DNA of 64,000 nt. Source: Dastarcus helophoroides. Taxonomy: Eukaryota > Arthropoda > Insecta > Coleoptera > Bothrideridae. The position numbers and the translations under genes were made by a program. A model generated the notes under the pieces. That model saw only the letters and a program-made list of their open reading frames with translations. It ran no database searches and had not been told where the DNA came from. Below, one piece after another: positions 1 through 53,090 of this stretch; the stretch's first letter is position 1; every line of letters begins with the position of its first letter. Location of the stretch: assembly GCA_028583605.1 (NCBI GenBank), contig CM053334.1, positions 22,495,726 through 22,559,725 of the forward strand, written 5' to 3'.

Positions 1-137
1 CTGGGAACTCTCCTAGAGAGCAGAGCAACCGCTTCGCTAGGTGGCAGTGTTTCAACTGTTGGTAGTTCAGCTACCTATGATACACGCCTGGAGGGCTGCA
101 TGAATTTGTAGTCTAGGTTGCATTCTTCTTCTTGCAT
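1..137 (+). repeat. Partial hammerhead-repeat unit (3' end of 381-bp family)
   Basis: This segment matches the last third of the 381-bp unit that is tandemly repeated at 21469-22249. It shares the stretch from CTGGGAACTCTCCTAGAGAG through CTGCATGAATTTGTAGTC and ends at the same TAGGTTGCATTCTTCTT..GCAT boundary before T-rich filler begins. The window edge cuts off the part that would hold the hammerhead core, so no ribozyme is visible here. Sharing the 3' boundary with the other array suggests a fixed element end. Confidence 0.85.
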
Positions 138-6580: not shown

Positions 6581-7617
6581 GAGGTTTAAAAATTACAGTT
6601 AATGTTCCTACCAATTGTAAAGTTATGCCAAATTAAGCAAATTTACCCACCATCCATATGAATTGAAGCAGTAATATGGAGCAGTTGGGGCAGTTATAGA
6701 TTGATTTTAATTTATAAATCGTACAACCATTTTTTCGGTTTTCTGTCTTTATTAGGAATATTTGTTGCAAACCAGGAGCGCCCTGCTAGGGGAGTTATGA
6801 GTTGATTTGTATTTATAAATCAAATTTTTTTCGATTTTTGGTTTTTTTGTTAATAGATAATGATTAAAACACATAACTGACGATATAAGTTTAGGAATAG
6901 TGAGTTGTTTGTAATTTTTTTTTTTTGCTTATATATTAACTTGGCATTAAATTTGTCGATATTGTGATGATTTTATACGAGATGATTTAATGCAGGATGC
7001 AAACGTAGATTGGTGGATGCACAAATGGCTTAGAAGGGATTCCCCGCACGTTTTCGCTCAAGAACGAAACGGTGGAATATCAATGGCAATGAATATTGGT
7101 GGAACGGACTGGTCCTTGGGTATCTTCAAGGATTGAAAAACAAATCTTGTCCCCTGCAATCAGGAAATATTAAAAAACACAACAGAGGTTGCTCTAACGC
7201 GTTTCGATTGCCAAGCTATCGTGTTCAGAGAGATACTTTTTTTCTTTTCAGAACTATTCAATTGGTTGTGAGAGTTGTATTTTTAGACTAAAGAAGCTGT
7301 TGTTGTATTTTGTTTTCGATTGGTGTTACGTAAATTTAAAATAAATGTCTAAAATAAAACTCAATCCCGGCGCATCCACCAAAACGCGTGTGTTGGGGTT
7401 GGTCGTTTTCCCATCAGTTTTCCTCGTTTTTTTGTGGGATAGTGGGCAGTAGGTTACATGTAAAGAATATATGTGTATTTGAGGTTTAAAAATTACAATT
7501 AATGTTCCTACCAATTGTAAAGTTATGCCAAATTAAGCAAATTTACCCAATTACCGAAATTTTTCAATCAACTTTCTCGTCCTCAACACATTATCTTTTA
7601 TTAAAAACCAATAACTA
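6581..7617 (+). mobile_element. Family A dispersed repeat, copy A
   Basis: About 1.04 kb, starting GAGGTTTAAAAATTACAG and ending near AAAAACCAATAACTA. It is collinear with copy B at 7663-8715. In order it holds an AT-rich 5' part with GGAGCAGTTGGGGCAG, a coding-looking block (about 6957-7136), the left arm of the foldback family beginning ATTGGTGGAACGGACTGG, a decayed hammerhead-like core on the minus strand (about 7200-7245), and a 3' part with CCGGCGCATCCACCAAAACG and GTGGGATAGTGGGCAG. The family is unclassified. No transposase or reverse transcriptase is visible. Confidence 0.7.
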
Positions 7618-7662: not shown

Positions 7663-8715
7663 GAGGTTTAAAAATTACAGTTAATGTTCCTACCAATTGT
7701 AAATTATGCCAAATTAAGCAAATTTACCCACCAACCATATGAATTGAAGCAGTAATATGGAGCAGTTAGGGCTGTTATAGATTGATTTTAATTTTACAAA
7801 TCGTACAACCATTTTTTCGGTTTTCTGTCTTTATTAGGAATGTTTGTTGCAAGCCAGGAGCGCCCTGCTGGGGGAGTTATGAGTTGATTTGTATTTATAA
7901 ATCAAATTTTTTTCGATTTTTTGTTTTTTTTTAATAGATAATGATTGAAACACATAACTGATAATATGAGTTTAGGAATAGTGAGTTGTTTGAAATCATA
8001 GCAGGAAGATTTTTTGTTTTGCTTATAGGATTAACTTGCATCAAATTTGTCGATATTGTGATGATTTTATACGAGATGATTTAATGCAGGATGCAAACGT
8101 AGATTGGTGGATGCACAAATGGCTTAGAAGGGATTCCCCGCACGTTTACGCTCAAGAACGAAACGGTGGAATATCAATGGCAATGAATATTGGTGAAACG
8201 GACTGGTCCTTGGGTATCTTTAAGGATTGAAATACAAATCTTGTCCCCTGAAATCAGGAAAGATTAAAAACACAACAGAGGTTGCTCTAACGCGTTTCGA
8301 TTGCCAAGCTATCATCTTAAGAGAGATACTTTTTTTCTTTTCAAAATTATTCAATAGGTTGTAAGAGTCGTATTTTTAGACTAAAGAAGCTTTTGTTGTA
8401 TTTTGTTTGCGGTTGGTGTTATGTAAATTTAAAATAAGTGTCTAAAATGAAACTCAATCCCGGCAGCATGCACCAAAACGCGTGTGTTGGGGTCGGTCGT
8501 TTATCCATCAGTTTTCCTCGTTTTTTTTTTGTGGGATAGTGAGCAGTAGGTTACGTGTAAAGAATATATGTGAATTTGAAGGTTTAAAAATTACAGTTAA
8601 TGTTCCTACCAATTGTAAAGTTATGCCAAATTAAGCAAATTTACCCAATTACCCAAATTTTTCAATCAACTTTCCCGTCCTCAACACATTATATTTTATT
8701 AAAAACCATTAACTA
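7663..8715 (+). mobile_element. Family A dispersed repeat, copy B
   Basis: Collinear with copy A in every block. The two copies share the same 3' tail (CCCAATTAC..AAATTTTTCAATCAAC), so the pair is a tandem duplication or adjacent insertion. This copy holds the intact 64-codon frame at 8036-8230. It also supplies the uninterrupted target sequence (AATAGATAATGATTG, about 7932-7946) that lets the transposon insertion at 13470-16105 be read. Confidence 0.7.
8036..8230 (+). CDS. Short open frame in family A repeat, possible captured exon
   Basis: A 64-codon frame containing CRYCDDFIRDD, VDWWMHKWLRRDS and YAQERNGG. It is preceded by a splice-acceptor-like tract TTTTGCTTATAG ending at 8028. The same block recurs at 6957-7136 and 16204-16355 with nearly the same protein reading; the first of these has TAA where this copy has CAA. 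The last residues (TDWSLGIFKD) translate the start of the foldback arm, so the natural exon, if any, is shorter. I do not recognise the protein. Composition (tryptophans, charged residues) is unlike the filler, which is why it may be an exon captured from a host or element gene. It could equally be a chance frame in a conserved repeat. Confidence 0.25.
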   Translation: MHQICRYCDDFIRDDLMQDANVDWWMHKWLRRDSPHVYAQERNGGISMAMNIGETDWSLGIFKD

Positions 8716-14228: not shown

Positions 14229-15287
14229 ATGGGAGGATATTCTGTTGACGAAAAGGTCAATATGATTTTGACAATAGGCGAATGTTACGAAAACTGTTTA
14301 TTAGCATCCAGAGTATACTCTCAACAATTTCCAGGTAAAAGGCATCCAGATAAAAATGTCTCTCAAAGACTGTTAGCAAGTTTTCGTGAATCAGGTAGCA
14401 TTGGTTATGAAACCAGTAAAATGTCAAAACCTGTTACGGGAAACGAAGAAAATGAGTTTCTTATAATGTAGTTAATTACTGAAAACCCTAATGTAAGTAC
14501 CGGAATTCTTGAAAAAGAAACTACGATAAGCAGAACAAGTATACGAAGAATCATCAATATCATCCATATCACTATGAAATGCACCAACATATGTACGGAA
14601 GAGATTTTGAAAGACGTTTGGAATTCTGTGTATGGTTTCTTGAAAAAGTTGGAGAAGAACCTGACTTTTATGGTTCTATTTTATTCACAGATGAATGCAC
14701 GTTCCATAATACCTCCCTAGTTAATCGTCACAATTTTCATTATTATAGCACTGAAAATCCACATTTATTTCATAGTCAGGATTATCAAAATCGTTGGAGC
14801 GTTAATGTATTTGGTGGAGTTATTGGCTATAACGTCGTTGGGCCATACTTTTTTGATGGCTCCTTAAGTGGGCAAGTTTTTTTAAGCTTTCTAAAAACAC
14901 ATTTCTGGATTATACTAGAAAATGTACCCTTAAATACTAGGTCAAATGTGGGTTCAGTTAGACGGAGCTCCTGCCCATTTTCACACTTCCGTAAGGAAAT
15001 ATTTAAATAGGAAATTTCAAAATAAATGGATTGGTAGAGGCGGTCCCCATAGCTGGCCACCCAGATCGCCGGACTTAACCCCAATGGACTTTTTCCTATG
15101 GGGGTATGTAAATAATATTGTATACAATGTTTCCCCTACCACCCCAGAGGACATGAAAAATCGAATACGAAATGCTTTTGAAACAATTGACGAAAGTATT
15201 TTAACAAATGTTAAGAACTCTTTTGAGAAAAGAATAAGACTTTGTGTAGAACAAAATGGTTCCCACATTGAACATTTGTTGGAGTAG
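14229..15287 (+). pseudogene. Tc1/mariner DD41D transposase, disrupted
   Basis: A cut-and-paste transposase acting in the nucleus on the element's own TIRs. The N-terminal 60 residues (YSVDEKVNMILTIGECYENC.. ASRVYSQQFPGKRHP) resemble the DUF4817 helix-turn-helix domain often fused to these transposases. The catalytic Asp codons lie at 14690 (FTDEC), 14961 (LDGAPAHF) and 15087 (TPMDFFLWG), with 41 residues between the second and third, which defines DD41D. Downstream WPPRSPDLTP and the C-terminal region to about 15284 are present, so coverage is near full length (about 350 codons). It is broken by an in-frame TAG at 14469, a frameshift around 14553-14560, and a one-base insertion around 14942. 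The start at 14229 (ATGGGAGG) agrees with the HTH domain. The catalytic residues survive although the frame is lost, so decay is moderate and the copy is not autonomous. Confidence 0.9.
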
Positions 15288-19600: not shown

Positions 19601-19828
19601 ACAAAGAGATAATGCGAGAGTTAACCTTCTGGTTGTTACTTGTGATAGCTTGTCTGTCGAAATTCGACAAGTGTTGTTGTATATCTGAATTTTTCTTGGT
19701 TTCAGGGGACAGGATTCGTATATCAGTTTTTAAAGATAATCAAGGACTTATCCGTTCCATAAAAAAACTACCTGATATAATTTACGACTCTACTCACTAC
19801 TGTCATGGTCATTACTCTATCGTCATCT

Positions 19829-19871
19829 TCTCTCTGAAGATGATAGCTTGGCTATCGAAACGCGTTAGAGC
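19829..19871 (+). ncRNA. Hammerhead-like motif, unit 1
   Basis: CTCT + CTGAAGA + T + GATAGC-TTG-GCTATC + GAAA + CGCG + TT + AGAG. The CUGANGA and GAAA boxes, a 6-bp stem II, a palindromic stem III (ACGCGT) and a 4-bp stem I are all visible. An extra unpaired U between CUGAAGA and stem II departs from the canonical core, so activity is doubtful. It may be a degenerate retrozyme/Penelope-type hammerhead. Confidence 0.5.
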
Positions 19872-19986
19872 AACCTCTGTTGCGTTTTTTTAGATAATCA
19901 AGGACTTATCCGTTTCATAAAAAAACTACTTGATATAATTCCCGACTCTACTCACTACTGTCATGGTAATTACTCTATCGTCATCT

Positions 19987-20029
19987 TCTCTCTGAAGATG
20001 ATAGCTTGGCTATCGAAACGCGTTAGAGC
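19987..20029 (+). ncRNA. Hammerhead-like motif, unit 2
   Basis: Same core as at 19829-19871, 158 bp downstream. Paired cores in a tandem repeat are what would be needed to excise a unit-length RNA. Confidence 0.5.
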
Positions 20030-20204
20030 AACCTCTGTTGTGTTTTTTTGAAATATTTCTTGGTTTTAAGTGACAAGAAGTGTATTTCAACTCGTAACTA
20101 TTGTGAAGAATTTGCCACGTGAAAGTTTTCGCGAGTGGATGGTAATACCGCGTCATTGCACCCTATCACATATAGTAAAAATTTAAAACAAACTTTTTAA
20201 TTTT

Positions 20205-20245: not shown

Positions 20246-21468
20246 GAATCCATTTTCTTTTACTTTGACACTTTTTAAAATTTTGATTTTTTTGGAATTC
20301 CCTTTTTTTAAACTTGTTTTTTTTTAAATTTTGACCTTTTTTAAAACTTTGACTGTGAAAATTTCGATTTTTGCGTAGAATAGAGGCTTATTAAAGTTTT
20401 GAATTTTTTTGAAAACGTCGAGTTTTAGAATGGTTGAATTTTCTCAAAATTTCAGTTGCCTTTCAAAATTTCGAATCTGTTTATCAATATGATATAACCG
20501 AAATTTTGAAAAAATCTAAGGTTTTTGAAATGTCCGACATTTTATCAAAACTTTATCCAAAATTTCGATATTTTTCGAAATTTTTACTCCTTTCCAAAAT
20601 TTCTACTTTTTTGAAAATCTCCACTTTTTTGAAAATTTCCACTTTTTTGAAAATTTTTCTATTTTTTGAAAACTACCTTCTTTCTGAAAGTTTTAAAATA
20701 CTTAATATTTTCGAATTATTTTGAAAACATCGACCTATTTTGAAATTTAGATTTTTTGATTAAAAATAATTTTTAAAATATTACATACTTTGAGAAAGAA
20801 ATTAAAAATTCCAATCAAAATTTCGACTTTTTAAAACCTGTTTATTTTTTGTTAAAATTTAAATATCCAAAAATTCGACTTTTTCTAAAATTGTAACCTT
20901 CAAAATTTCTACATTTTTTTTGAAATATTTGACTTTCCTTATAATTTTGCCTCTTCTTCAATAGTGAATCTTTTCGAAAATTTCGCTTCTTTGGAAATTT
21001 TGATGACTTAATTTTTTCAATCTTCGACTATTTTTGAAAATCCTGACAATTTGTCAAAATGTTAATTTCTTAAAATTTCGAATTTATTCGCAAATTTTCC
21101 AATTCCAATTTTCAAAATATTTGAAAATGACGACTTTTGCAGAATTTAAATTTTCTTTGAAAATCGTAAATTCTTTTTAGAAATTGTAATCTTTTCAATT
21201 CAGCCTTTTTTCAAAATTCCAATTTTTGTTGAAAACCTTGACATCAAAAATTTTTGAATTTTCAATAGTATCAAATTCTTTATAAAAATCTACCTTCTTC
21301 AAGGTTTTATACTTTTTTTAAAACATTGGTTATTTTTTTTTTTAATTTGGAATATTTTGAAAATCCTGACCATTTTTAAGTCTTAAATCTTTTCCAAAAT
21401 TTTGCTTTTTTCGAAATTTTATTATTTTTAAAAATTATTGTTTTGTAAACTTTTGATTAAATAATCAT
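20246..21468. repeat. T-rich degenerate minisatellite filler
   Basis: Contains a short local tandem of TTTTTTGAAAATTTCCAC at about 20600-20660 and otherwise irregular AAAATTTCGA motifs. No gene. Confidence 0.6.
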
Positions 21469-21610
21469 CTAGGTTGCATTCTTCTTGCATACGACATTGT
21501 TGGCGATGGCCATAGTTTCTCTATGGACCAATAGGTGGTAGTACTAAAGAATCACTCGCTTGACGCCTGTGAATGTTTTAGTACTTACTTGTCGGCACAT
21601 TTATTAGCAT

Positions 21611-21682
21611 TCGAGTTGGATATACCAAACTGACGAGATCTAACAAGATCGAAACCGGTATTTGGTTTCCAAACTTCGAATC
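21611..21682 (+). ncRNA. Type I hammerhead ribozyme, unit 1
   Basis: Stem I ACCAAA (21624-21629) pairs with TTTGGT (21661-21666) and extends through an internal loop, TTCGAGTTGGA against TCCAAACTTCGAA. Core CTGACGA is 21630-21636; stem II is GATCT-AACA-AGATC (21637-21650); core GAAA is 21651-21654; stem III is CCGG (21655-21658); cleavage is predicted after A21660 in GTA. Stem III (ACCGGT with core pairing) is palindromic and too short to close a loop well, so activity probably needs two cores pairing, as in newt and cave-cricket hammerheads. Confidence 0.92.
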
Positions 21683-21991
21683 TAATAAATGTTCAAACCT
21701 ATTGGTCTGTGCATTATAGAACCTTTGTCTTCTGGGAACTCTCCTAGAGAGCAATCGCTTCGCTAGGTGGCAGTGTTTCAACTGTTGAAAGTTCAGCTAC
21801 CTATGATTCACTATACATACACGCCTGGAGGGCTGCATGAATTTGTAGTCTAGGTTGCATTCTTCTTGCAGACGACACTGTTGGCGATGGCCATAGTTTC
21901 TCTATGGACCAATAGGTGGTAGTACTAAAGAATCACTTGCTTGACGCCTGTGAATGTTTTAGTACTTACTTGTCGGAACATTTATTAGCAT

Positions 21992-22063
21992 TCGAGTTGG
22001 ATATACCAAACTGACGAGATCTAACAAGATCGAAACCAGTATTTGGTTTCCAAACTTTGAATC
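21992..22063 (+). ncRNA. Type I hammerhead ribozyme, unit 2
   Basis: Core CTGACGA at 22011-22017, the same GATCT-AACA-AGATC stem II, GAAA at 22032-22035, and stem I ACCAAA/TTTGGT. Stem III reads CCAG instead of CCGG, so it no longer self-pairs perfectly, but three of four bases fit against unit 1. Predicted cleavage is after A22041, exactly 381 nt from the unit 1 site. Confidence 0.88.
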
Positions 22064-22249
22064 TAATAAATGTTCAAACCTATTTGGTCTGTGCATTATA
22101 AAATCCTTGTCTTCTGGGAACTCTCTTGGAGAGCAACCGCTTCGCTAGGTGGCAGTGTTTCAACTGTTGATAGTTTAGCTACCTATGATTCACTATACAC
22201 ACCTGGAGGGCTGCATGAATTTGTAGTCTAGGTTGCATTCTTCTTGCAT

Positions 22250-25200
22250 AATCAAAAGTTTGCAAAAAAATAAAAAAATTGACATTCTTCGACTTTTTTC
22301 GAAATTTTATCATTTTTTAAGTTTTTAATTTTCTTGAAGAAATTTTGGCTCTCCTTGAAATTTTGACTTATTTGAATTTTTTAATATTTCGTACATTTTT
22401 CCCCAAAAATAAGGAAATTTCTGACAAAATTTGCGCTTTTCCTTTCCAAAATGTCGATAATTTTTAAAAATTTCGTCCTTTTTTACTAACTTTCGCCTTT
22501 TTAAAAAAAAATTTGATATTTCTTTTGAAAATTGAAGTTTTTTATTCAAAATTTTCAATCAAAACTTTGGATATTTTTAAAAGATGCCTTTTTTAAAGAT
22601 GTTAACTGTTTAAAATTTCGACTTTTCTTGACATTTTATCATTTTTCAAGTTTTTAATTTTTTTAAAGAAATTTTGACTTTCTTTGAAATTTTGGCTTAT
22701 TTGAGTTTTTTACAATGTTGCAAATTTTTACCGAAAATTGCGAAATTTTTGACCAAAATTGGGAAATTTTTGACCAAAATTGCGCTTTTCCTTTCCAAAA
22801 TGTCGATAATTTTTTTTAATTTCGCCTTTTTTTAAAAATTTCGCCTTTTTCTTAAACATTTCAATATTTCTTTTCCAAATTTAAGTTTTTTATGAAGATT
22901 TTCAATAAAAACTGTAGATATTTTTTAAAATGTCTGTTTTTTAAAATTTGAGTGTTGAAAATTTCGGATTTTTTTGAAATTTTAGATCTTTTTTGAGAAA
23001 TATGACTGTTTTTCAAAATCTTGAAAGTTTTGGTAATTTTTTCCATTTTAAAACTTTAGTTTCCTTAAAAATTTCGTTTTTCTTTTCTCGAAATTTCATC
23101 ACCTTTTAAAAATTTTGATTTTTTTTGTCAATTTTAACTTTTTTAAAAAATGATTTGTTTTTGAAAATTTTAGGTGTTCAAAATTTCGGATTTTTTTGAA
23201 ATTTTAGATCTTTTTTGAGAAATATTGACTGTTTTTCAAAATCTTGAAATTTTTGGTAATTTTTTCCATTTTAAAACTTTAGTTTCCTTAAAATTTTCGT
23301 TTTTTTTCTCTTTTAAAAATTTTGATTTTTTGTCAATTTTTAATTTTTTTGCAAACTTTCGTTTCCATTTGAATTTTTATTTTATTTTTTAAATTTTGAC
23401 TTTTTGAATGTTCTTAATTATTTAACAAAGTTTTGAGTTTTTCTAACAATTTGGTAATTTTTGATAAAATTTGGACTATTTTCAAAATGTCGAAATTTTT
23501 TTCCAAAATTTCAATTTGTGAAAATTTCGACATGTTTTAAATTTTTTTTTAGAATTCCCAATTAACAATTTTGACTTTTTAAAAAAATGCTTTGTTTTTG
23601 AAAATTTTAGGTTTCAAAATTTCGGATTTTTTTGAAATTTTAGATCTTTCTTGAGAAATATTGACTGTTTTTCAAAATCTTGAAATTTTTTTTGGTAATT
23701 TTTTCCGTTTTAAAACTTTAGTTTTCTTAAAAATTTCGTTTTTTTCTCGAAATTTGATCACCTTTTAAAAATTTTGATTTTTTGTCAATTTTTAATTTTT
23801 TTGCACACTTTCGTTTCTATTTGCATTGTTATTTTTTTAAATTTTGATTTTTTGAATGTTCTTAAGTATTTAACAAAATTTTGAGTTTTTCTAAAATTTG
23901 GTAATTTTTGATAAAATTTGGACTAATTTCAAAATGTCGAAATTTTTTTCCAAAATTTCAATTTGTTTATGAAAATTTCGACATGTTTTAATTTTTTTTT
24001 TTGGAATTCCCAATTAACAACTACGACTTTTTCTAAAAATGACTTGTTTGTGAAAATTTTAACTGTCCAAAATTTGACTTTTTTTTTGAATATTTCAGTT
24101 TTCTAAATTTCAACCCTTTTTGATTTAAAAATTAAAATTTTTCTAAAAATTTCGCAATATTTTAATATTTAGATTTTTTGTTTGAAAATCAGCCATTTTT
24201 AAAATTTTGCACTTTTTTACACTTTGTTTTTTAATTTCAGTTAAAATTTTGATTTATCTCCAAAAATTTTGCTGCCAACATTTTTGTACTTTAAAAACTC
24301 TAAACTTTCTTTTGAAAAAATCCACCTTTTTCAAAATATCAGACTTTCTTTAGAAGTATTGACTACATTTCCAAAATTTGGAAGTTTTTGGAAACCTTTG
24401 TCCATTTTCCAAAATTTGGAATTTTTTGACAATTTTTGTCCATTTTGAAATTATCAAGTTTTTTTCAAAATTTCGTTTCATTCAATATTCCATCAGTTTT
24501 CGAAATTTTCGTTTTTTTTTGAACTTTCGATTTTTTTACAAATTGTGAACTTTTTTGAGGAAACTGAGACTTGCATTAAAATAACCACTTTTTTAAATTT
24601 CCTGTTCTGAAAAATGTTTCTGAAAATTTTTACATTTTTGACCAAATTTGCACTTTACCTTTCCCAAATATCGATGATTTTTTGAATATTTCGATTTTTT
24701 TTTTAAACTTCGGCACTTTCTTTTACAAAATTTACGTTCTTTATAAAAATTTTCAAATAAATACATTGACCTTTCTAAAGATTATTTTAGAAATTTTAAC
24801 TGTTCAAAATTTTAAAGTTTTTCGAAACATTTTAGTTTCCAAAATCTTCACTTTTTTGATATCAAAATTTCAAATTTTTCAAACAATTTCGCAATGTTTT
24901 AATATTTCGAAATTTTTGTGTGAATATCTGGAGTTTTTAAATTTTAAATCTTTTAGCATTTTTTTAAGTTCCAATCAAAATTTCGTACTTTTTTCAAAAA
25001 TTTTGACCAAAAAAAAATGTTTGGTCTTTTAAAAGTTTAAACTTGCGAAAAAATCTACCTTTTTCATAATTTAGGACCTTTTTTTAAAAATATTAACTAC
25101 ATTTATTAGGATTTAAAAATTTTTGAAAATGTTGTCCATTTTCAAATTATTTTTTTTAATTTCTCCTTTTTTGGAGATTTTATCATTTTTCAAAATTTTG

Positions 25201-26330: not shown

Positions 26331-26694
26331 GAATCATCACCTTTCGGATTTTTTTTTTTTGGTAACCCCAATTGTTCAAAATTTTTTTGATAGTTTTCTT
26401 TGGCGCTTCATCGCCATCTATTCTTGCTTCCGTATTCTACTCGCGGTGCTTTGAAGGCATAATGGGGTTACCTTTGCGAGTGGATTAAACTAAAAAAAAA
26501 AACTTTGCCGATTTTTAAACAACACATGAAGGAGTCGAAGTGACGAGAAAAAAATAAATATTTTGGACAAAAAAGACATTTCTAAATTACAAAAGTCAAA
26601 AACTGGAGAGAAATCTACAAGAATTCGCAACAAAATTACTTTCGAAGCAAAAATAAAACTTTCGTGGGAAACACGAAAATTCATTGTTTTTTTA
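26331..26694. other. Mixed AT-rich sequence
   Basis: A short complex stretch (CTTTGGCGCTTCATCGCCATC at about 26399) between filler and a family A fragment. No feature assigned. Confidence 0.4.
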
Positions 26695-27060
26695 AAAATG
26701 GAAATACAAATCTTTGTTCCCTGAAACCAAGAAAAATTAAAAAAACCAACAAAGGTTGCTCTAACGAGATCGATAGTCAAGCTATCATCTTCAGAGAGAT
26801 ACTTTTTTCTTTTCAGTTCACTTCTTTTCAATTTTCAACTAGTTGTAAGGATGGTATTTTTAGACCAACGAAACGTTTGTTGTATTTTATTTTCAGTTCG
26901 TGTTATGCAAATTTAAAATAAGTGTCTAAAATGAAATCCAATCCCGGCGCATTCACCAAAACGCATGTGTTGGGGTTAGTCGTTTTACCATCAGTTTTCG
27001 GCGTTTTTTTTGTGGGATAGTGGGCAGTAGGTTACATGTAAAGAATATATGTGTATTTAT
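26695..27060 (+). mobile_element. Family A repeat, copy D (3' part)
   Basis: Runs from GGAAATACAAATCTTTGTTCCC through the minus-strand hammerhead-like core to GATAGTGGGCAGTAGG and GAATATATGTGTATTT. It lacks the coding-looking block. The 113- and 85-codon frames across it (26490-26831 minus, 26664-26921 plus) are incidental. Confidence 0.75.
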
Positions 27061-30540: not shown

Positions 30541-33500
30541 TTGAAAATTCTAAATATCTGCTCTTCTCTTCCCTTCTCCCCCTTCTCTTCCCTTCGCTTC
30601 TTTTCTCATTTCTTTTCGTATTTTCTCTTCTCTTCTATTTTCTTCTCTTCCCTTCTCTCTTTTCTTGTTTTCAATTCCGTTATTTTCTCTTTCTTCTTTT
30701 CACTTCTCTTATTTTCTCTTCTCTTATCTTCTCTTCTCTTCTCTTCCCGTCTCTTCTCTTCTCTTCTCTTCTCTTCTCTTCTCTTCTTTTCTCTTCTCTT
30801 CTCCTCTCTTCTCTCTTCTCTTTTCTTTTCTTTCTTTTTTTTCTTTTCTTTTTTTTTCTTTTCTTCTCTTCTCTTCTCTTTTCTTCTCTTTTCTTCTCTT
30901 TTCTTCTCTTCTCTTTTCTTCTCTTCTCTTCTTCTGTTCGCTTCTCTTCTCTCCTCGTCTTATCTTGTCTAAGTTTTTTCCATCTCTTCTCTTTCTTTTC
31001 CCGTCTCTTCTCTTCTCCTTTCTTTTCTTCTCTTCTCATCTCTTTTTACTTTTTTTATCTCTTCTCATCTCTTCTCATCTTTTTTCACCTTTTCTTTCTC
31101 TTCTCTTGTCTTCTCTTCTCTTCTCTTGTCTTCTCTTCCCTTCTCTTCTCTTATCTTTTCTTCTCTTTTCTTCTCTTCTCTTCTTTTCTCTTCTCTTTTT
31201 TTCTGTTCTCTTCTCTTCTCTCCTCGTCTTTTTTCTTCTCTTCTCCTTTCTTCTCTTCTCTTCTCCTTTCTTTTCTTCTCTTCTCATCTTTTCTAATTTT
31301 TTCCTATCTCTTTTCATCTCTTTTCATTTCTTCGTATCTCTTCTTATCTTTTCTCATCTTTTCTCATTTCTTTCCATCCCTTCTCACCTTTTCTTATGTC
31401 TTATCATCTCTTCTCATCTCTTTTCACCTCTTCTTTCTCTTCTCTTGTCTTCTCCTCTCGTCTCTTTTCTTCTCTTCTCTCCTCTTCTTTTCTTGTCTCA
31501 TCTAGTCTCATCTCTTCTCATATCTTTTCATCTCTTCTCATCTCATCTCATCTCATCTCATCTCATCTCTTCTCAACTCTTCTCAACTCTTCTCATCTCT
31601 TCTTATCTCTTCTTATCTCTTCTTATCTCTTCTCATCTCTTTTTATCTCTTCTCATCTGTTCTCATCTCTTCTTATCTTTTCTCATTTCTTTCTGTCTTT
31701 GCTTATCTCCTTTCATCTCTTCTGATCCCTTCTCATCTTTTCCTTCTCTTCTCTTCTTTTTCTTTTCTCGTCTTTTCTATTCTCTACTCTTTCTTCTCTT
31801 CTCTTCTTATCTCTTATCCTTTCTTATCTCTTTTTATCTCTTCTTTCTCTTCTCCTCTGTTTTCTTCTCTTCTCTTCTCTCTTCTCCTTTCTTTTCTTCT
31901 CTTCTCATCTCTTCTCATCTTTTCTTATCTCTTTTCAACTCTTCTTATCTTTTTTCATCCCTTCTCATCTCTTCTCATCTCTTCTCAACTTTTCTTTCCC
32001 TTCTCTTGTCTTCTCTTCTCTTCTCTTCTCTTCTCTTCTCTTCTCTTCTCTTCTTTTTTTTCTTCTCTTCTCTTCTTTTCTCTTCTCTTCTCTTCTCTCC
32101 TCTTTTCTTCTCTTCTGTTTTCTACTGTTCTCTTTTCTTCTCTTCTCATCTTTTCTCACCTCTTCATATCTCTTCTCATCTCTTTCTTTTCTCTTTTCGT
32201 CTCTTCTCTTCTCTTTTCTTCTGTTCTCTTCTCTTCTCTCCTCGTCTTTTCTCTTCTCTTCTCCTCTTCTCTTCTCTTCTCATCTTTTTTTATCTCTTTT
32301 CGTCTCTTCTTATCTTTTCTCATCTCTTCTCATCTCTTTTTATTTTTCTTATCTCTTATCATCTCTTCTCATCTTTTCTCACCTTTTCTTTCTCTTCTCT
32401 TCTCTTCTCTTTTCTTCTCTTCTCTTATCTTCTCTTCTCTTCTTTTCTCTCTTTTTTCTTCTGTTCTCTTCTCTTCCCTTCTCTTCTCGTCTCTTCTCTT
32501 CTCTTCTCTATTCTTTTCTTTTCTTCTCTTCTCTTCTCTTTCTTTATCTTTCCTTCTCTTTTCCTCTCTCTCCCTATTTCTCTCCTTTTTTTACCTCTTT
32601 TTTCTTTTCTACTTTTTTCTTTTTTCATCTCATCTCATTTCATTTCATCTTATCTCATCTCAACTCATCTTATCTCATCTCATCTTATCTCGCATCTCCT
32701 CTCCTCTCCTCTCCTATTTTCTCCGCTTCTCTCGTCTCCTCTTTTCTTCTCTTTTCTTTTTATTTTTCCCTTCCTTCTCTTCTCTTCTCTTTTCCTTTTT
32801 TTCTCTTTTCCTCCCTTCTCTTCTCCTCTCTTCTCTTCTCTTCTCTTCTCTTCTCTTCTATTCCTTCTCTTCTCTTCTCTTCTCTTTTCTTTTTTCCTCT
32901 TCTCTTGTCTTCTCTTCTCTTCTCTTCTCTTCTCTTCTCTTCTCTTCTCTTCTCTTCTCTTCTCTTCTCTTCTCTTCTCTTCTCTTCTCTTCTCTTCTCT
33001 TCTCTTCTTTCTCTTTTTCTTCTCTTCTCTTCTCTTCTCTTCTCTCTTTTCTTCTCTTCTCTTCTCTTCTCTTCTCCTTTCTTCTCTTCTCTTCTCTCTT
33101 CTCTTCTTTCTCTTCTTCTCTTTTCTTCTCTTCTCTTCTCGCCTTTTTTCTTCTCTTTTCCTTTCTTCTCTTCTCTTCTCATCTCTTCTTATCTTTTCCT
33201 ATCTATTTTCATTTCTTCGTATCTCTTCTTATCTCTTCTCATATCTTCTCATTTCTTTCCATCTCTTCTCACCTTTTCTTATCTCTTATAATCTCATCTC
33301 ATCTCTTCTCATCTCATCTCATCTCATGTCATCTTTTCTCATCTTTTCTTATCTCTTCTTATCTCTTCTCATCTCTTCTCATCTCTTCTCATCTCTTCTT
33401 ATCTTTTCTTATCTCTTCTTATCTCTTCTTATCTCTTCTCATCTCTCCTTTCCCTTCTCTTTTCTTCTCTTCTCTTCTCTTTCTTTTCTCGTCTCTTTTC

Positions 33501-34210
33501 TTCTCTTCTCTCCTTTTCTTTTCTCGTTTCATCTCGTCTCATCTCTTCTCAACTCTTTTCATTTCTTCTCATCTTATCTCATCTCTTGTCATCTTTTCTC
33601 ATCTCTTCTTATCTCTTTTCATCTCTTCTCATCTCTTCTCATCTCTTCTTATCTCTTCTCACCTCTTCTCATCCCTTTTCATCCCTTCTCATCTCTTCTT
33701 ATCTCTTCTCATCTCTTCTCATCTCTTCTCATCTCTTCTCATCTCTTCTCATCTCTGTTCATCTCTTCTCATCTCTTTTCATCTCTTCTCATCTCTTTTC
33801 ATCTCTTCTCATCTCTTCTCATCTCTCCTCATCTCATCTCATCTCTTCTTATCTCTTTTTACCTCTTCTAATCTGTTCTTCCTTTCTCTTCTCCTCTCTT
33901 TTCTTCTCTTTTCTACTTTTCTTTCCTCGTTTCATATTTTCTCATCTTTTTTCATCTCTTTTCGTCTCTTTTGGTCTCTTCTCGTCTTTTTTTTTATCTC
34001 TTCTCATTTCTTCTCATCTCTTCTCATCTTTCTTCTCATCTCTTTTCTTCTCTTCTCTTCTTTTCTCTTCTTTTTTCTTCTTTTTTCTTCTTTTCTTTTC
34101 TCTTCTCTTTTTTTCTCTTTTTTTCCCTTCTCTTCTCTTTTCCTCTCTCTTGTTCTCGTTGCTTCTATCCACTTCTCACCCCTCTTTCTCTGTCCCTCTT
34201 TCTATCTCTC
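30541..34210 (+). repeat. Compound TTCTC / ATCTCTTCTC satellite, 3.7 kb
   Basis: Degenerate (TTCTC)n pentamers alternate with blocks of the decamer ATCTCTTCTC (for example 31050-31110, 31520-31730, 33340-33440, 33590-33840) and a pure-ish ATCTC patch at 32625-32695. The pyrimidine strand is almost exclusively + over 3.7 kb. Because the pentamer has no stop codon in any frame, it yields open frames of up to 1068 codons of Leu/Phe/Ser; these are not genes. Confidence 0.97.
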
Positions 34211-35395: not shown

Positions 35396-36600
35396 ACAAT
35401 TCCGAATTCTATTTCCTTAAGTGTAGTGATGACTTATCATTGAAGTAATATGATTATATCCAAACTGGTACATAATACACGAATGCTCTTGATGAGTAAA
35501 CAACTTTGGAATTAGAGGACTACTGAATTCGGAAATGAGATGAAACTTTCATGCATTTTTAATGATGTTAAGGGTAAAAGTAGAAACTGTGGGATTTAGG
35601 TAAAGAGGACATATATTGTATGACCATGCTACGAGTCTCTCATTCATTGGAACAAATTCCCTAACAAAGCAGACACTTGGAGTGTCTCGTATATCGTCTG
35701 GTGCTCCTTTATAAATCAGGTGCGAATAAGGAAATTCCGCCGAGTGGCCAGTGGCTACTAAGTATGGGGGAGAACGAAACGAACGTGAATAGGTATTGTC
35801 CGGCCATGGTTCAGATACTTGAAACAATCGCCGTCAACTTTAGTTCTGCACTGTGCATTTCGCTGGCCGGTCCAGCGGCGCTGCTATCTGCCCTTTCTTT
35901 ATCACAACATACCGTGTGACGGGTAATAGATACCAAACTCACCAACAGAGCGACTACGCTCTACCTATCTCGGCCAAAGTCGATATGTAAGAGATACGGC
36001 CGTTGTCGCAAAATGAATTTGTAGGTGCATACTGGCTAACGAGATAACATTAAATATATGCATAATTGTTCATGCATAAATGTCATTTTCAATATTAAGA
36101 GCGGAGGCTCTCGAAGTGCGAGTCATGGTAGTAGTCGCCTAAGTTAGTTAACTCGGCATACATTTTTGAAAATTGCAACTATTTATGAAACATTTATTTA
36201 TAAAAAAAAAAAAAACGAGAAAAACATTTATCATGGGAGCATATATAGTTTAAAAGAAAATTGGAGAGGGGTAAATATTTTTAGAAATTTCAAGGTTTTT
36301 CAAAAAATTCTTTAAGAATTCAGAGTTCTTTGATTTTCGTATCTGAATAACGATTTATTTTTAAATGTTAAAAGAAAAAAAGACGTATACATTTCATTTT
36401 AAACTAGAAATGTGTAGTTTTGTATAAATTTCAAGAATTCTTTTATATTTAATCATTAATTTTTTTAAGGATAACAATTCTGGCGTGCTCAAAACTTTTC
36501 ATTCCATGGACTCTCGGAACGAGGTTCCTCTCAAAATTTTGACTTTAGGAAGGAATCTGTAACAAAATAGCTCTTTCAACTTTTTCTTTTCGTTTCTTCT
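35396..36600. other. Unique sequence
   Basis: No recognised gene. Overlapping opposite-strand frames (35549-35827 minus, 35677-35919 plus) lack known domains. Moderately GC-rich blocks (for example 35850-35990) may be conserved. Confidence 0.35.
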
Positions 36601-36628
36601 GTTTTTTTCTCTTCTTTGCTCTTTTTTG

Positions 36629-37272
36629 CTCTTCTCTTCTCTTCTCTTCTCTTCTCTTCTCTTCTCTTCTCTTCTCTTCTCTTCTCTTCTCTTCTCTTCT
36701 CTTCTCTTCTCTTCTCTTCTCTTCTCTTCTCTTCTCTTCTCTTCTCTTCTCTTCTCTTCTCTTCTCTTCTCTTCTCTTCTCTTCTCTTCTCTTCTCTTCT
36801 CTTCTCTTCTCTTCTCTTCTCTTCTCTTCTCTTCTCTTCTCTTCTCTTCTCTTCTCTTCTCTTCTCTTCTCTTCTCTTCTCTTCTCTTCTCTTCTCTTCT
36901 CTTCTCTTCTCTTCTCTTCTCTTCTCTTCTCTTCTCTTCTCTTCTTCTCTTCTCTTCTCTTCTCTTCTCTTCTCTTCTCTTCTCTTCTCTTCTCTTCTCT
37001 TCTCTTCTCTTCTCTTCTCTTCTCTTCTCTTCTCTTCTCTTCTCTTCTCTTCTCTTCTCTTCTCTTCTCTTCTCTTCTCTTCTCTCTTCTCTTCTCTTCT
37101 CTTCTCTTCTCTTCTCTTCTCTTCTCTTCTTCTCTTCTCTTCTCTTCTCTTCTCTTCTCTTCTCTTCTCTTCTCTTCTCCTCTCTTCTCTTCTCTTCTCT
37201 TCTCTTCTCTTCTCTTCTCTTCCCTTCTCTTCTCTTCTCCTCTCTTCTCTTCTCTTCTCTTTTTTCTCTCCT
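36629..37272 (+). repeat. Near-pure (TTCTC)n pentamer array
   Basis: About 127 pentamer copies with only a handful of interruptions: register slips near 36944, 37083 and 37130, and C/T changes near 37179, 37222 and 37239. Far more homogeneous than 30.5-34.2 kb, so recently expanded. The 228- and 221-codon frames within it are repeat artefacts. Confidence 0.98.
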
Positions 37273-39900
37273 CTTCGAAGAAATGGTTTAGTTTTAATTT
37301 AGTTTTTTTCCTAAAATTTCAACCCTTAACCTCAAAATTATTCTTTAAACAGTTTTTAAATGTTAATGTCGAAAGAAAATAGACATTTCCAGACTAACAT
37401 CACTTCGAGGATACGCATAAAATGAAAATGTTTTTTTTTAAATAGATTTCCAGCTTTCTTCGATTTGTTTATTTTTTCTCGGTTTTTGTAATTTGAATTT
37501 TGTTTTCTTGAAGATTTGGCCTTATGTACAAAATTTTTTTTTAGAACTGTTTGTTCTTATAGTTTTTATTAAGCTGCCCTACAATTTTTTGTTTCTACAA
37601 AACTAGCAACTATGGCATAAATATTTGCGTGTTACACGTTACTGAAAGCGTCACTCGCAATATTATCGATTAGTTCGAATGTGATTTTCGCCTTTTGAAT
37701 GATGTACCGATAGCATGTCGAAGCGGAGGGGTGGAGGTGGGTGTTATTGAGACAGTATTTGTGGGGGGTAGAACGGTTTAAAAGAACATTGTGGGGTTGG
37801 CTCTAATCGATTCCCTTTTCTTTGTAGCTGATCTGTTACAGATGTCGATTTTATAGCGCCGGAAAACGCTTTCAAACGATTCCCTTAATGTCACTGCTAA
37901 TATCTTTCAACCATTCGAGGCCCCCCTTGTTTCCTTGTATCGTAGAAATATGGCTTTTTGAATTTTCAGTCGTACATTAAAATACGATGCGATCTTTAAT
38001 GTCGCGGTTTGTTTTATTGCTGGAAACATCAAAATATTTTGTTACGTTTCGTATCACTTGCATTTGATGTTGTGCAGTCGTAATTTATACTTACGAATGG
38101 ACGGTGCTACTCAAAATAGACGCGTCTTCATCTTATTAGAACGAAAAGCTTTGCCAAAAACATACGCGATTTTCTGATTAATATGCGATATATTTCCTAA
38201 AAATTATAATTCTGTAGAGAGCCTTAGTCATAATAACATTAATTTTAAGAGAAGATAGAGAAAAATGACTATGATATAAGTACGTAATTATCTTTTAGGT
38301 TTTGATTGAAAAAACATATGTTCAAATCAATTCAATACTTAATCTAAAACCGTGAACAGTGCAGAATATTTAGAAAAAATAGGTACAAATATTACAAAGC
38401 GTCTGATCCTCGAAAGATTCCGAAGACCATAGACTTTTGTGAATCTATAAGTTAAGCAGGTGATGCCAGAGGAATTTCTTTACATCACGAATTAACGAAT
38501 CATCTTTTTTTTTCTTCACGGACGCCACAACCCTTAAATATTTCGGAATAATAAGCACTTAAGTATTCCTGTAAATACAATGTACCTGTCTAGCAATTGT
38601 TTGGGCTGTTAGGACGTTTCACTGTTGGCACATTTTTCATCAACAACTGCCGGCGATAACATGCTACGAAATTAAATGGTGTGTTGTTCGAGTGTTAAAC
38701 ATTTATTTTCTGGATACGTCGTTATTTATATTTTAAATTTCCTGTTTAATTTTGGGAGTATGGTTAATTTTTTCCTAGGCTTTTCACGCTCATTTATTTT
38801 TTAGAATTTCTGTTATGTTTTTAGCCAAATCTGTTAAAAAAAGAAACCAAACGAGGTAAATTAGACGTAATTATTTTCATACTAGTTTCTAGTATATGAA
38901 ATTATACAAATAATTCTATGGAGTAAGAGCTAAAAATTTGTAGCTCATTAGATCAGTTTACCTTTTCTCTACACCTGATAAGTACCTGCTGACCTATAAA
39001 ATCGTAAACAGTTAATTGAAAGCTTGAATCAGTATCGTATTGTGGGGGAAATTTGTGAGTGGATTTTTCTCCTCTCTTCATCAGTGTTACTTTTTTCATC
39101 TTTCCAACCAAATACATGATTATATTATAAGTGAAACATCCTGTAAATCATGTGGATGCATCAAAAACTTGATCAGGATTATTAGTTCACCATTTGGTCC
39201 AACTTAAATACTACAATTAATTTAAAAATTATCTAAAGTGTAAGAAACAGCTTCCCCTGATGACAAATGAAATATGCCGATTAAGGCCGTCGCGAACTCG
39301 GTGACATAAGTTGTGAACATAACCTGAAATGCTTTGTAAGACGTCACCTGTCAAATAACCTTCTAAAGTAAACTTCTTACGGCAAAGTCAACCAATTTAG
39401 CATACCATTATCTATAATAACACACAAAATCGCAAGCATAAGTTGCTAAATTGCTAAATTGACAATATTTAATACCTCACCTTGGCATAATCTTAATACA
39501 GTTTCCAACTTTGATAATTAGTGTTCTTAAGCTCGAGTTAGACAAACACTGCACTAACGGATTTATTTTAGACTTTATTTGCCCCCTGTTTAGCAGCCGC
39601 TCCTTGTTCGATGCCAGAAAATCCGGCGAGTTGCTCTCGTTTTGTTGGGAATGTGTGAAGGAGAAACTTATGGGGGGCATTTTCCTAAATCTGTTTGCAC
39701 ACCTGATTGTAATTTAATAGGGATTTTTACAAGATGTACTTCTGTTTGTCTATCTGCACTTTGTAAGGCTTATAATAACCCTTTGTTTTATCCACTTGCT
39801 CCTTGCTATCGCATTTAAGAAACATCCCATCTATATTCATGAACAACCCTTTCCCATTTTTTAATCAAATATTTTCAGTTCACTTAAGTTATGTAGTAAT
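37273..39900. other. Largest non-repetitive island (part 1)
   Basis: Mostly single-copy sequence by eye, with no supported exon. 67/68-codon frames on both strands at 39477-39717 are mutual shadows and unrecognised. Confidence 0.35.
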
Positions 39901-40984: not shown

Positions 40985-42925
40985 CTGAAGACTCGTTAAG
41001 CAGCTAAATATAGACATGATTGTATCAACGAATTTAAACAAAACATCATTCTGCAATCTGCACGAACTTCTTAAAACTAGGCACCCCGGATTAGATTATT
41101 ATTATTATTATTACGTCTTGTTTAGCAGCTAAATATAGACATGATTGTATCAAAGAATTTGAACAAAACATCATTCTGCAATCTGCACGAACCCCTAAGA
41201 CTGGGTACACCATATTCGATTATTATTACATCTTGCTAAGCAGCTAATTATGTACAAACATGATTGTATCAACTAATTTGAACAAAACATCATTCTGCAA
41301 TCTGCACGATCTTCCTAAGACTGGGTACACCAGATTCGATTATTGTTACATCTCGTTAAGCAGTTAAATATAGCCCTGATTACATAAACGAATTTGAACA
41401 AAACATCATTCTGCAATCTGCACGAACTCTTTAAAACTGGACACACCGGATTAGATTATTCTTACATCTCCCTCAGCTAAAAATGAAAATGACTGTATCA
41501 ACGAATTTGAACAAAAAATCATTCTGCAATCTGCACGAACTCCTTAAAATTGGCCACACCAGATTAGATTATTATTACGCCTCGCTCAGCAGTTAAATAT
41601 ACATGATTGTATCAACCAATTTGAACAAAACATCATTCTGCAGTCTGCACGAACTCCTTAAAACTGGGTACACCAGATTCAATTATTATTATATCTCGCT
41701 AAGCAGCTAAATATGTACAGACATGATTGGATCAACGAATTTGAAAAAAAAATCATTCTGCAATCTGCACGAACTCCTTAAAACTGGTCACACCGAATTA
41801 GATTATTATTACGTTTCGCTAAGCCGTTAAATATAGACATGATTGCATCAACAAATTTGTACAAAACATCATTCTGCAATCTGCACGGACTCATTAAAAC
41901 TGGCCACACCGAATTAAATTATTATTACGTCTCGCTAAGCAGTTAAATATGTACAGACATGATTGAATCAACGAATTTGAAGAAAACATCATTCTGCAAT
42001 CTGAACGAACTCCTTAAAACTGGTCACATCGAATTAGATTATTATTATTCTCGCTAAGCCGTTAAATGTAGACATGGTTGCATCAACAAATTTGAACAAA
42101 ACATCATTCTGCAACTTGCACGGACTCATTAAAACTGGCCACACCGAATTAAATTATTATTACGTCTCGCTAAGCAGTTAAATATAGACATTATTGCAAT
42201 AAGGAATTTGAACAAAACATCATACTGCAATCTGCACGAACTCCCTAAAACTGGGTACACCAGATTCGATTATTATTACGTTTCGTTAAGCAGTTAAATA
42301 TAAACTTGATTGCATGAACGAGTTTGAACAAAACATCATTTTGCAATCTGCACGAACTCTTTAAAACTAGAGACAACGGGTTAGATTATTATTAAGTCTC
42401 GCTTAGCAGCTAAATATAGACATGATTGTATCAGCGAATTTGAACAAATCATCATTCTGCAATCTGCACGAACTCCCTAAAACTGGGTACATCAGATTCG
42501 ATTATTATTACGTCTCATTAAGCAGTTGAATATAGACATGATTGCACGAACGAATTTGAACAAAACATCATCCTGCAATCTGCACGAACACTTTAAAACT
42601 GGAAACACCGGATTAGAATATTATTACGTCTCGCTAAGCAGCTAAATATAGACATGATTGTATCAGCGAATTTGAACAAAACATCATTCTGCAATCTGCA
42701 CGAACTCCCTAAAACTGGGTACACCAGATTCGATTATTATTACGTCTCGTTAAGCAGTTAAATATAAACTTGATTGCATGAACGAATTTGAACAAAACAT
42801 CATTCTGCAATCTGCACGAACTCTTTAAAACTGGACACACCGGATTAGATTATTCTTACGTCTCGCTAAGCAGCTAAAAATGAAAATGATTGTGTTATCG
42901 AATTTAAACAAAACATCATTCTGTA
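40985..42925 (+). repeat. 116-bp satellite, 17 monomers with A/B alternation
   Basis: The landmark CATTCTGC (or near variants) recurs at about 41047, 41172, 41291, 41407, 41520, 41634, 41754, 41870, 41990, 42105, 42221, 42337, 42453, 42569, 42685, 42801 and 42917; the last eight intervals are exactly 116. In the right half, two monomer types alternate: one with CTGGGTACACCAGATTCGAT and GTTAAGCAGTTAAATATAAAC, the other with CACACCGGATTAGATTATT and CGCTAAGCAGCTAAATATAG. This gives a 232-bp higher-order unit. Single relict monomers lie at 18551-18640, 47640-47745 and 55830-55925. Confidence 0.95.
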
Positions 42926-45557: not shown

Positions 45558-45869
45558 TCATTTATTGTATTTACAAGTGACAAACGGCGAGAAAACAAAG
45601 TAACACTTCAATGCAACAAATTTAAAAACGTTATATAATACGAATTCATTTTCAACTTGAGTTCGTCCTTTCAAAAATTTCTTGTGCGATTCATACACTT
45701 GAGTTTTCTTCAAACAAGTATCTCCAAAATGTGCTTCTAGTCTACGAAGAATTTTGGCGGGCTTTACACATTCAACGGCAAGAAATTTAATAATAATGCA
45801 CTGCGCAACGTGCGGATGAACCTCTTGCTCATTTATTGTATTTACAAGTGACAAACGGCGAGAAAACAA
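45558..45869 (-). pseudogene. Mariner-type HTH fragment, unit 2
   Basis: An open frame of 103 codons reading EQEVHPHVAQCIIIKFLAVE, KPAKILRRLEAHFGD and VYESHKKFLKGRTQVENE. This matches the Mos1-type N-terminal helix-turn-helix layout (IKF..; L...YGD; V..WHKRF.EGR..V.D), which binds the transposon ends. After VENE the frame runs into unrelated FVLYNVFKFV and junction sequence, so the second HTH, linker and DDD catalytic domain are missing. Not a functional transposase; a domesticated DNA-binding role is conceivable but unsupported. Confidence 0.7.
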
Positions 45870-46176
45870 AATAACACTTTAATGCAACAAATTTAAAAAC
45901 GTTATATAATACGAATTCATTTTCAACTTGAGTTCGTCCTTCCAAAAATTTCTTGTGCGATTCATACACTTGAGCTTTCTTCAAACAATTATCTTCAAAA
46001 TGTGCTTCTAGTCTACGAAGAATTTCGGCGGGCTTTACACAATCAACGGCAAGAAATTTAATAATAATGCGTTGCGCAACATGCGGATAAACCTCTTGCT
46101 CATTCATTGTATTTACAACTGAGGAACTTCGAGAACGAAATTGGCTTGGGCGCAGGAAGTCACATGATATCCCCAC
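45829..46176 (-). pseudogene. Mariner-type HTH fragment, unit 3
   Basis: A 115-codon frame. Its domain part reads NEQEVYPHVAQRIIIKFLAV, KPAEILRRLEAHFED and YESHKKFLEGRTQVEN, a better match to the family than unit 2 (QR rather than QC; an in-frame Met before NEQE). The first 23 codons come from the neighbouring minisatellite. The C-terminus SPFVTCKYNK reads into the unit 2 junction, which proves the tandem arrangement. Lacks the catalytic domain. Confidence 0.7.
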
Positions 46177-52837: not shown

Positions 52838-53090
52838 TGAAATACAAATCTTGTCACCTCAAATCAATAAAGATTAAAAAACACATAAAAGGTTGCCTTA
52901 ACGCGTTTCGATGGCCAAGCTATTATCTTCAGAGAGATACTAGCACCTAATCCTAATCCTCTCCTGAAGATGATAGCTTGACTATCGAAACGCGTTAGAG
53001 CAGCCTTTGTTGTAGTTTTTTAATCTTTTTTGGTTTCAGGGGACAGGAATTAAGTATTTATATTTGTGAAGATAACCAGTCCGTTGCACC
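52838..53090. mobile_element. Foldback element with two opposed hammerhead-like cores
   Basis: Left arm TGAAATACAAATCTTGTCACC, right arm GGTTTCAGGGGACAGG..CCAGTCCGTTGCACC. A core-like motif lies on the minus strand (about 52894-52940) and another on the plus strand (about 52960-53003: CTGAAGATGATAGCTTGACT, then ATCGAAACGCGTTAGAGC). The centre CACCTAATCCTAATCC is unique to this copy. Confidence 0.75.

Follow-up and report, generated by a model that had tools for sequence, protein, structure and literature searches.

Animal retrozymes are noncoding tandem retroelements that carry hammerhead ribozymes (HHRs). Where it deals with their mobilization, the description by Cervera and de la Pena (2020; PMC7229834) leaves the mobilizing element open and puts forward Penelope-like elements (PLEs) as a strong candidate, on the grounds that both kinds of element carry type I HHRs, both occur in tandem, and the two coexist; its account of amphibian ribozymes reports that HHR_Amex1 of the axolotl is active mainly as a dimer. 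In the parts of PMC3846280 that describe Adineta, the Pen families have inverted pseudo-LTRs, one of which may carry a 31-bp tail, and duplications of 8 to 10 bp; the head-to-head arrangement is given there as the commonest among Penelope copies and is ascribed to self-priming on an antisense template. Purified PLE protein, in the experiments of PMC11167929 that concern priming, cuts and extends both target strands, and starts at two internal sites, which correspond to the tail. The start site was the same for both strands in those experiments, which does not favor a strict strand-to-site rule. The phrase "nonautonomous Penelope" occurs in PMC6685494.

We analyzed a 64,000-nucleotide stretch of the Dastarcus helophoroides genome (the window), in which a preliminary description had picked out a tandem HHR-bearing repeat, together with copies of the repeat elsewhere in the assembly. 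We put a probability of roughly 0.7 on the reading that the repeat is a nonautonomous, noncoding retrozyme of the animal kind, mobilized by a PLE and inserting by two-ended target-primed reverse transcription.

The tandem hammerhead repeat and its copies in the genome

The features of the family in the window are as follows.

21469 to 21849, plus strand: unit 1, 381 bp, 94.8% identical in sequence to unit 2
21850 to 22227, plus strand: unit 2, 378 bp, assigned by sequence
22228 to 22249, plus strand: 22-nt terminal piece of a third unit, the outer A end (unit position ∼22)
21461 to 21467, plus strand: possible left copy of a target duplication of the single-arm window insertion, ATAATCA, 5 to 7 bp, found by eye and too short for certainty
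22248 to 22254, plus strand: possible right copy of this duplication, found by eye and overlapping the final two bases of the element
21612 to 21683, plus strand: HHR 1, with stem I ACCAAA/TTTGGT plus an outer pairing, CTGACGA, stem II GATC/GATC, GAAA, and helix III A(CCGG)T, a loopless palindrome; Rfam HH9, 34.4 bits, E 9.7e-7, below gathering
21993 to 22064, plus strand: HHR 2, core as in HHR 1, helix III broken (CCAG); Rfam HH9, 30.5 bits, E 1.7e-5, below gathering
1 to 137, plus strand: right end of another insertion of this family, most of which lies beyond the window

The tandem repeat at 21468 to 22249 is real and consists of two HHR-bearing units of 378 to 381 bp, with the edge CTAGGTTGCATTCTTCTTGCAT found at both of its ends, as had been described; no other long direct repeats were seen in the window insertion or in the loci read. 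The further copy reported to end at 137 has the same ending, with three extra bases in its edge. It belongs to a head-to-head insertion that starts at position 6777 of locus L047, with a B end on the left, an A end on the right (both defined below), and a 9-bp repeat, ATCCTGAGC, in both flanks. A consensus unit of 377 bp was derived from the 62 full units in loci L009 to L048, including the two in the window; its G+C content is 42.4%. The unit had been called noncoding, and the circularized consensus bears this out, the longest stop-free runs being 45 amino acids on the plus strand and 72 on the minus strand.

The CTGACGA motif begins at 21630 in unit 1 and at 22011 in unit 2, with predicted cleavage sites after 21660 and 22041, 381 nt apart, just as first calculated. 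Unit 1 contains every core residue, including CTGACGA, stem II, GAAA, UA, and stem I ACCAAA/TTTGGT, and the epithet "perfect" that had been given to the stems of both HHRs applies to it; unit 2 has an intact core and has lost the helix III palindrome (CCAG). The Rfam check that had been proposed gave a mixed result: there were no matches at gathering over the whole window, and the HH9 model (RF02275) aligned in full length to both HHRs below its gathering score of 52. The shortfall is explained by the model, which expects a looped helix III, where the sequence here reads GAAA-CCGG-UA with no loop. A descriptor composed after the motif was known, and scanned over both window strands, found 5 HHR-like sites, including the pair in the tandem units, compared with none in 30 first-order Markov sequences; sites in tandem do not count as independent.

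The form of helix III bears on how the ribozyme would work. ACCGGU is palindromic and loopless, so that a normal helix III would be possible only between two ribozymes; both HHRs lack the loop, and a single copy is not expected to suffice for cleavage. The palindrome is kept as ACCGGT in 60 of the 62 full units, and the whole HHR motif is intact in 58. Unit 2 of the window, one of the two palindrome exceptions, has ACCAGU, which would allow pairing with unit 1 at the cost of a single mismatch. In the minimum-energy fold of the monomer, the core CUG is paired with the helix III palindrome, and a monomer would thus be held inactive, with weak cleavage expected.

A search of 538.9 Mb in 50 contigs with the HHR core, allowing at most two mismatches, returned 3,661 forward and 3,655 reverse copies; the reversed-pattern control returned none. 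This total of 7,316 places the family beyond a local dimer, and copies lie dispersed on contigs C1 to C13. Forty loci (L009 to L048), picked as the best unit 1 matches and not at random, were read, most of them with ∼3 kb of flanks. Mapping a tetramer of the 377-bp consensus onto them yielded 44 insertions; loci L001 to L008 overlap loci in this set and were left out of the arm and unit counts. A RasGEF frame lies ∼2 kb from the unit copy in L025, with best matches of up to 90% identity; its identity to a sequence of Anoplophora glabripennis is 86% across 74% of the frame, and to one of Callosobruchus maculatus 80% across 59%, in line with a beetle as the probable host.

The window also holds two further families with HHR-like cores. 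The second family, at 640 to 1240 on the minus strand with its core at 959, has a loopless palindromic helix III (ACATCGATGT) and 2,109 core matches in the genome at up to three mismatches; among the first 100 listed, all on contig 1, neighbors closer than 1.3 kb were head to head in 11 cases and in the same direction in 1. The third family is very common (window positions 19726 to 20049, 52833 to 53078, 7103 to 7237, 8197 to 8330, 26691 to 26803, and 49365 to 49581; 24,727 core matches in the genome at up to three mismatches), and several copies are head to head. Its core has one extra U (CUGAAGA-U) and its helix III is ACGCGU; counted without L047 and L048, which overlap or adjoin the window, 17 of 29 copies have an intact core, and in 4 of 29 both bases of one stem II pair have changed. 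The extra base, together with a hairpin that would compete, makes ribozyme activity of this family doubtful. The remaining features of the window are (TCTTC)n arrays of ∼3.6 kb (30557 to 34156) and ∼0.7 kb (36595 to 37276), which give rise to long spurious open frames; a satellite array with a 116-bp period and ∼15.6 copies (41104 to 42923); and frames that resemble mariner-type transposases by eye (14513 to 15287 and 45829 to 46176), for which a Pfam search at 0.001 gave no match in 14513 to 15010 or 45829 to 46176.

Layout, ends, and flanking duplications of the insertions

Two arms lie head to head in 32 of the 44 insertions. The inner arm ends are variable, and the outer ends are fixed, falling at unit position 18 to 33 (A) or 249 to 259 (B); the extension is 146 nt, from B to A in the unit. 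Both outer ends could be classified in 28 insertions, of which 27 are A/B, one (L042) is A/A, and none is B/B (P = 1e-7 against free assortment); this count leaves out 11 insertions without an opposite arm at one side and 5 with an end outside the two classes. No head-to-head junction is present in 12 of the 44, including the window's own insertion at 21468 to 22249 and, by the rule applied, L039, where a short opposite arm is visible. In L018, two arms of 99% and 93% identity lie tail to tail ∼500 bp apart, apparently as two separate events. In a differently drawn sample, which overlaps the 40 loci in at least L017 and L042 and consists of the first 100 listed HHR matches (exact, on contig 1), neighbors closer than 1.3 kb comprised 13 head-to-head, 5 same-direction, and no tail-to-tail pairs.

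Flank repeats were scored as the best exact match between left and right flanks, with boundaries free to slide 14 nt. A repeat of at least 8 bp was found in 27 of the 28 bounded insertions, compared with 5.6% of 754 mismatched flank pairs. Seventeen of the 27 A/B insertions have a repeat of 12 bp, and A+T makes up 78% of the repeat sequence. Each head-to-head structure thus behaves as a single insertion event. At 26 of the 32 inner junctions, the arms either overlap by no more than 6 nt or leave no more than 3 nt between them. No consistent poly(A) or simple tail was seen at the insertion ends of the 44 mapped insertions.

An inverted layout with flank repeats and internal tandem repeats might be expected of a DNA transposon or fold-back element with terminal inverted repeats, or of a satellite, in which the HHR would be a product of chance. 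This we consider the least probable of the readings weighed here: the outer ends are unlike each other, the inner arm lengths vary freely, and the unit encodes no protein, and the control scan, the conservation of the motif in the full units, and the dispersal of the copies on contigs C1 to C13 also speak against it.

Twin priming during L1 retrotransposition generates 5′ inversions together with target duplications. Mobilization by a LINE, with the inverted arms arising in this way, would therefore account for both the inversion and the duplications, and RVT_1 fragments, possibly of LINEs, are found in two loci (L038 and L013). Twin priming fixes one end only, however, whereas here both outer ends are fixed and unlike; in addition, the insertions lack a consistent tail, and the resident PLE described below has a similar layout. 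We regard a LINE origin as improbable.

A third source of inverted arms is fold-back self-priming of a single cDNA, as proposed for Penelope in the portion of PMC3846280 that treats copy arrangement. Some junctions look the part, in that the arm starts lie within 10 nt of each other at 5 of 32 junctions (1.8 expected) and two junctions overlap by more than 30 nt within the portion of the unit that is self-complementary. At the other 27 junctions, however, the starts are more than 10 nt apart, and self-priming predicts A/A or B/B outer ends, which is the opposite of what the classified insertions show. Self-priming is accordingly rated very improbable, and the one-of-each end rule speaks for target priming at both ends from a single template rather than for a cDNA that primed itself.

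A resident Penelope-like element with a similar layout

An open frame in locus L027 contains a GIY-YIG domain (25.8 bits). Among the 37 relatives listed for this frame, the 5 named ones are from insects; several carry PF26215, a helix-turn-helix domain, two carry PF00078, and one has all three domains. This combination identifies the L027 frame as that of a PLE. A further copy was read in L017.

L027, 4578 to 5490, and L017, 2433 to 2806: regions of a PLE that has near-identical copies in the genome and open frames of up to 814 amino acids

The genome contains 4,592 PLE candidates. Among the best 150 of these, many are ∼100% identical and some have frames of 600 to 814 amino acids; the 23 neighboring pairs within 6 kb in this subset comprise 22 head-to-head, 1 same-direction, and no tail-to-tail pairs. 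Read by eye, each of the copies in L027 and L017 has one short end, while the other end runs on for a further 33 to 41 nt; both copies are flanked by 12-bp repeats, the final bases of which are perhaps the element's own. The copy in L040 has the same layout with a partial tail, and L013 shows one end only, again by eye. When the PLE end was mapped elsewhere, tail-reaching copies had 9 partner arms (L017 included), of which 7 stop at or near the short end (158 to 168 of 175, with the short end at 156 to 162) and 2 stop earlier; among 40 scored end copies, no two that reach the tail lie within 1 kb of each other. This mapping is coarse, since the query ended 13 to 19 nt past the short end and favored tailed copies.

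Just upstream of the PLE short end, an HHR-like relic was recognized by eye, with stem II GCCAG/CTGGC, GAAA, and the palindrome ATACGTAT, and without the consensus core. A likeness between the B end of the unit and the long end of the PLE, also noted by eye, was dropped because it conflicts with the order of the sites relative to the HHR.

The PLE and the unit could in principle be parts of one element. PLEs carry minimal HHRs in their pseudo-LTRs and form partial tandems and inverted pseudo-LTRs, according to the relevant passages of PMC3846280 and PMC7761336, and GIY-YIG and PLE matches are plentiful in this genome; the unit might therefore be the pseudo-LTR of a coding PLE and the arrays truncated PLE debris, with no separate element. 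Two observations make this unlikely. The arms hold up to four full units and a near-complete one in direct succession (L010), with no run above 72 amino acids, and the sole PLE among the flanking frames of the loci, that of L027, lies ∼370 nt from a unit insertion, with ends and a duplication of its own. Comparison of the unit with the L027 PLE region by blastn gave nothing significant, and no start-site sequence is common to both; nor, with this region as the comparison, was a PLE found whose start region resembles the A or B end of the unit. The shared layout strongly suggests that a PLE is the mobilizing enzyme of the retrozyme-like unit, and falls short of proof because the unit and the one PLE read have no start-site sequence in common.

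Templates, predicted start sites, and comparison with known systems

The lengths of the arms bear on the nature of the template. Among unsplit arms, the longest A arm measures 1,026 nt and the longest B arm 1,201 nt, both exceeding the 377-nt unit, and the A arm of L010, which is split in the alignment, extends to ∼1,900 nt. Arms beyond unit length read through the cleavage site, and the template must therefore be longer than one unit or circular. Neither arm is consistently longer: in the 22 insertions with both arms unsplit, the A arm is the longer in 13 (Wilcoxon P = 0.80). Inner arm starts show a mild excess within 5 nt of the cleavage site (6 of 78, compared with 2.3 expected), so that some templates may be cleaved linear RNA.

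Two common variants of the family, at positions 93 and 105, were used as markers of the template. At marker 93, both arms are equal in 17 of 19 insertions by majority (shuffle mean, 11.6; P = 0.005), and at marker 105 they are equal in 20 of 20, with all copies alike in 19 (shuffle mean, 11.6; P = 0.0001). Within arms of at least two units, marker 93 agrees in 23 of 24 and marker 105 in 22 of 24. Across all positions, non-consensus bases are common to 81 of 453 within-arm and 47 of 343 between-arm comparisons, a low level of sharing that is expected if most changes arose after insertion and that limits the claim of a single template. From the agreement between arms, one RNA variant seems to have templated both, and a shared template is well supported by the two markers at the level of sequence. 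The agreement seems to fit a single circle; a multimer of uniform sequence, or a pair of RNAs from the same array, would fit equally well.

Folded as a circle, the consensus reaches −134.3 kcal/mol, compared with −90.2 (standard deviation, 4.8) for 100 shuffles (z, about −9). Along the RNA, the order is the HHR, ∼61 nt, B, 146 nt, and A, and the fold brings the last two together in a helix.

21478 to 21490, plus strand: A strand of the predicted start-site helix (consensus 10 to 22), with reverse transcription start A at its 3′ end; from the A ends and pairing probabilities
21709 to 21722, plus strand: B strand of this helix (consensus 241 to 254), with reverse transcription start B (∼253) at its 3′ end; from the B ends and pairing probabilities

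Of the 13 nt leading up to A, ten are paired with the strand that terminates at B, at probabilities of ∼0.6 to 0.8; among position pairs separated by 30 nt or more in the same circular fold, 0.37% reach this extent of pairing. Folding a linear piece that begins at the cleavage site and stops shortly after A does not give the helix; as the product of one consensus fold without covariation, the helix is a lead only. We tentatively propose, as an idea that is more doubtful than the main reading, that both starts may sit at the 3′ ends of the strands of this one helix and that a PLE enzyme dimer docked there might prime the two cut target strands, one site each, on a single circular RNA. If true, helix-docked priming would make the insertion concerted and two-ended and would explain the predominance of A/B ends and the near absence of A/A and B/B; the optional "tail" long known from Penelope elements would then be a second start site.

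The insertions can be pictured as follows. Arrays of the unit would be transcribed, and their HHRs, acting in pairs held together by the palindromic helix III, would cut the RNA into units of ∼377 nt, which would be ligated into circles. The reverse transcriptase/endonuclease of a PLE would cut both strands of an AT-rich target, ∼12 bp apart. From the fixed pair of ends, we infer that one RNA variant would be primed on both strands, at site B (∼253) on one and at site A (∼22) on the other. Each polymerase may pass unit length and would stop at a variable place, and the two cDNAs would be joined in the middle of the element, mostly with little or no overlap. The product would be a pair of head-to-head arms with A and B facing outward, flanked by target duplications. 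Retrozyme-like insertions that carry a PLE-type scar, found beside a PLE with an equal scar, bear on the question of the retrozyme mobilizer left open in 2020, and the end rule, which also concerns the way in which Penelope elements themselves insert, is testable with the PLE protein that has already been purified or with the insect's own PLE.

Among known ribozymes, the best model for the HHR is Rfam RF02275, Hammerhead_HH9, which aligned in full length and differs in score (34.4 and 30.5 bits, compared with a gathering score of 52) and in having the helix III loop that is missing here. Minimal type I HHRs of PLEs with no helix III loop, reportedly described by Luense, Weinberg and Breaker in 2017, are said to cleave as a dimer; the HHR described here sits instead in a retrozyme-like noncoding unit and has a longer, bulged stem I. 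The amphibian satellite HHRs (newt, and axolotl HHR_Amex1) are similar in that helix III is one base pair capped by a palindromic tetraloop and in that they cleave better as dimers, in the account of them given in PMC7229834; they differ in sequence and in host, and two fixed ends form no part of that account.

The likeness to animal retrozymes extends to traits listed for them in PMC7229834, namely, short tandem noncoding units (170- to 400-nt class) with a type I HHR, a G+C content below 50%, target duplications above 4 bp, a predicted self-paired circle, and thousands of copies. Judged by the definition of a retrozyme, the family has a repeat within 150 to 450 bp, a type I HHR in each unit, no coding capacity at a G+C content below 50%, and duplications above 4 bp. 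Helix III is mostly stable in invertebrate retrozyme HHRs, as surveyed in part of PMC7761336, in contrast to the loopless helix here, and the head-to-head arms of this family have no counterpart in the treatment of genomic copies in PMC7229834, the main text of which does not contain the word "inverted." In the literature on retrozymes, PLE priming, nonautonomous PLEs, and coleopteran HHR retrotransposons, with subscription journals mostly outside the search, the layout is unreported as far as titles and abstract openings go. The suggestion that the family may be undescribed is consistent with that literature, repeat libraries such as Repbase lying outside the comparison.

PLEs provide the closest parallel for the insertions themselves. 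The Pen elements of Adineta, in the sections of PMC3846280 devoted to them, share the head-to-head inverted arms, the optional extension at one inverted end, and the duplications, and PAc of Anolis, as characterized in the corresponding part of PMC11167929, shares an HHR, internal reverse transcription starts, and AT-rich targets. In contrast to the PLEs of these accounts, the unit has no protein, its start sites are 146 nt apart rather than 30 to 40, and its arms consist of a 377-nt repeat; the combined reverse transcriptase and GIY-YIG open reading frame of a PLE is lacking, and the head-to-head layout with target duplications and the extension at one end are present. The preliminary view that this is a retrozyme rather than a complete PLE holds for the unit, which is tandem, noncoding, HHR bearing, present in thousands of copies, predicted to fold as a self-paired circle, and free of a PLE reading frame; its insertions, however, carry a PLE signature that is common to them and the resident PLE.
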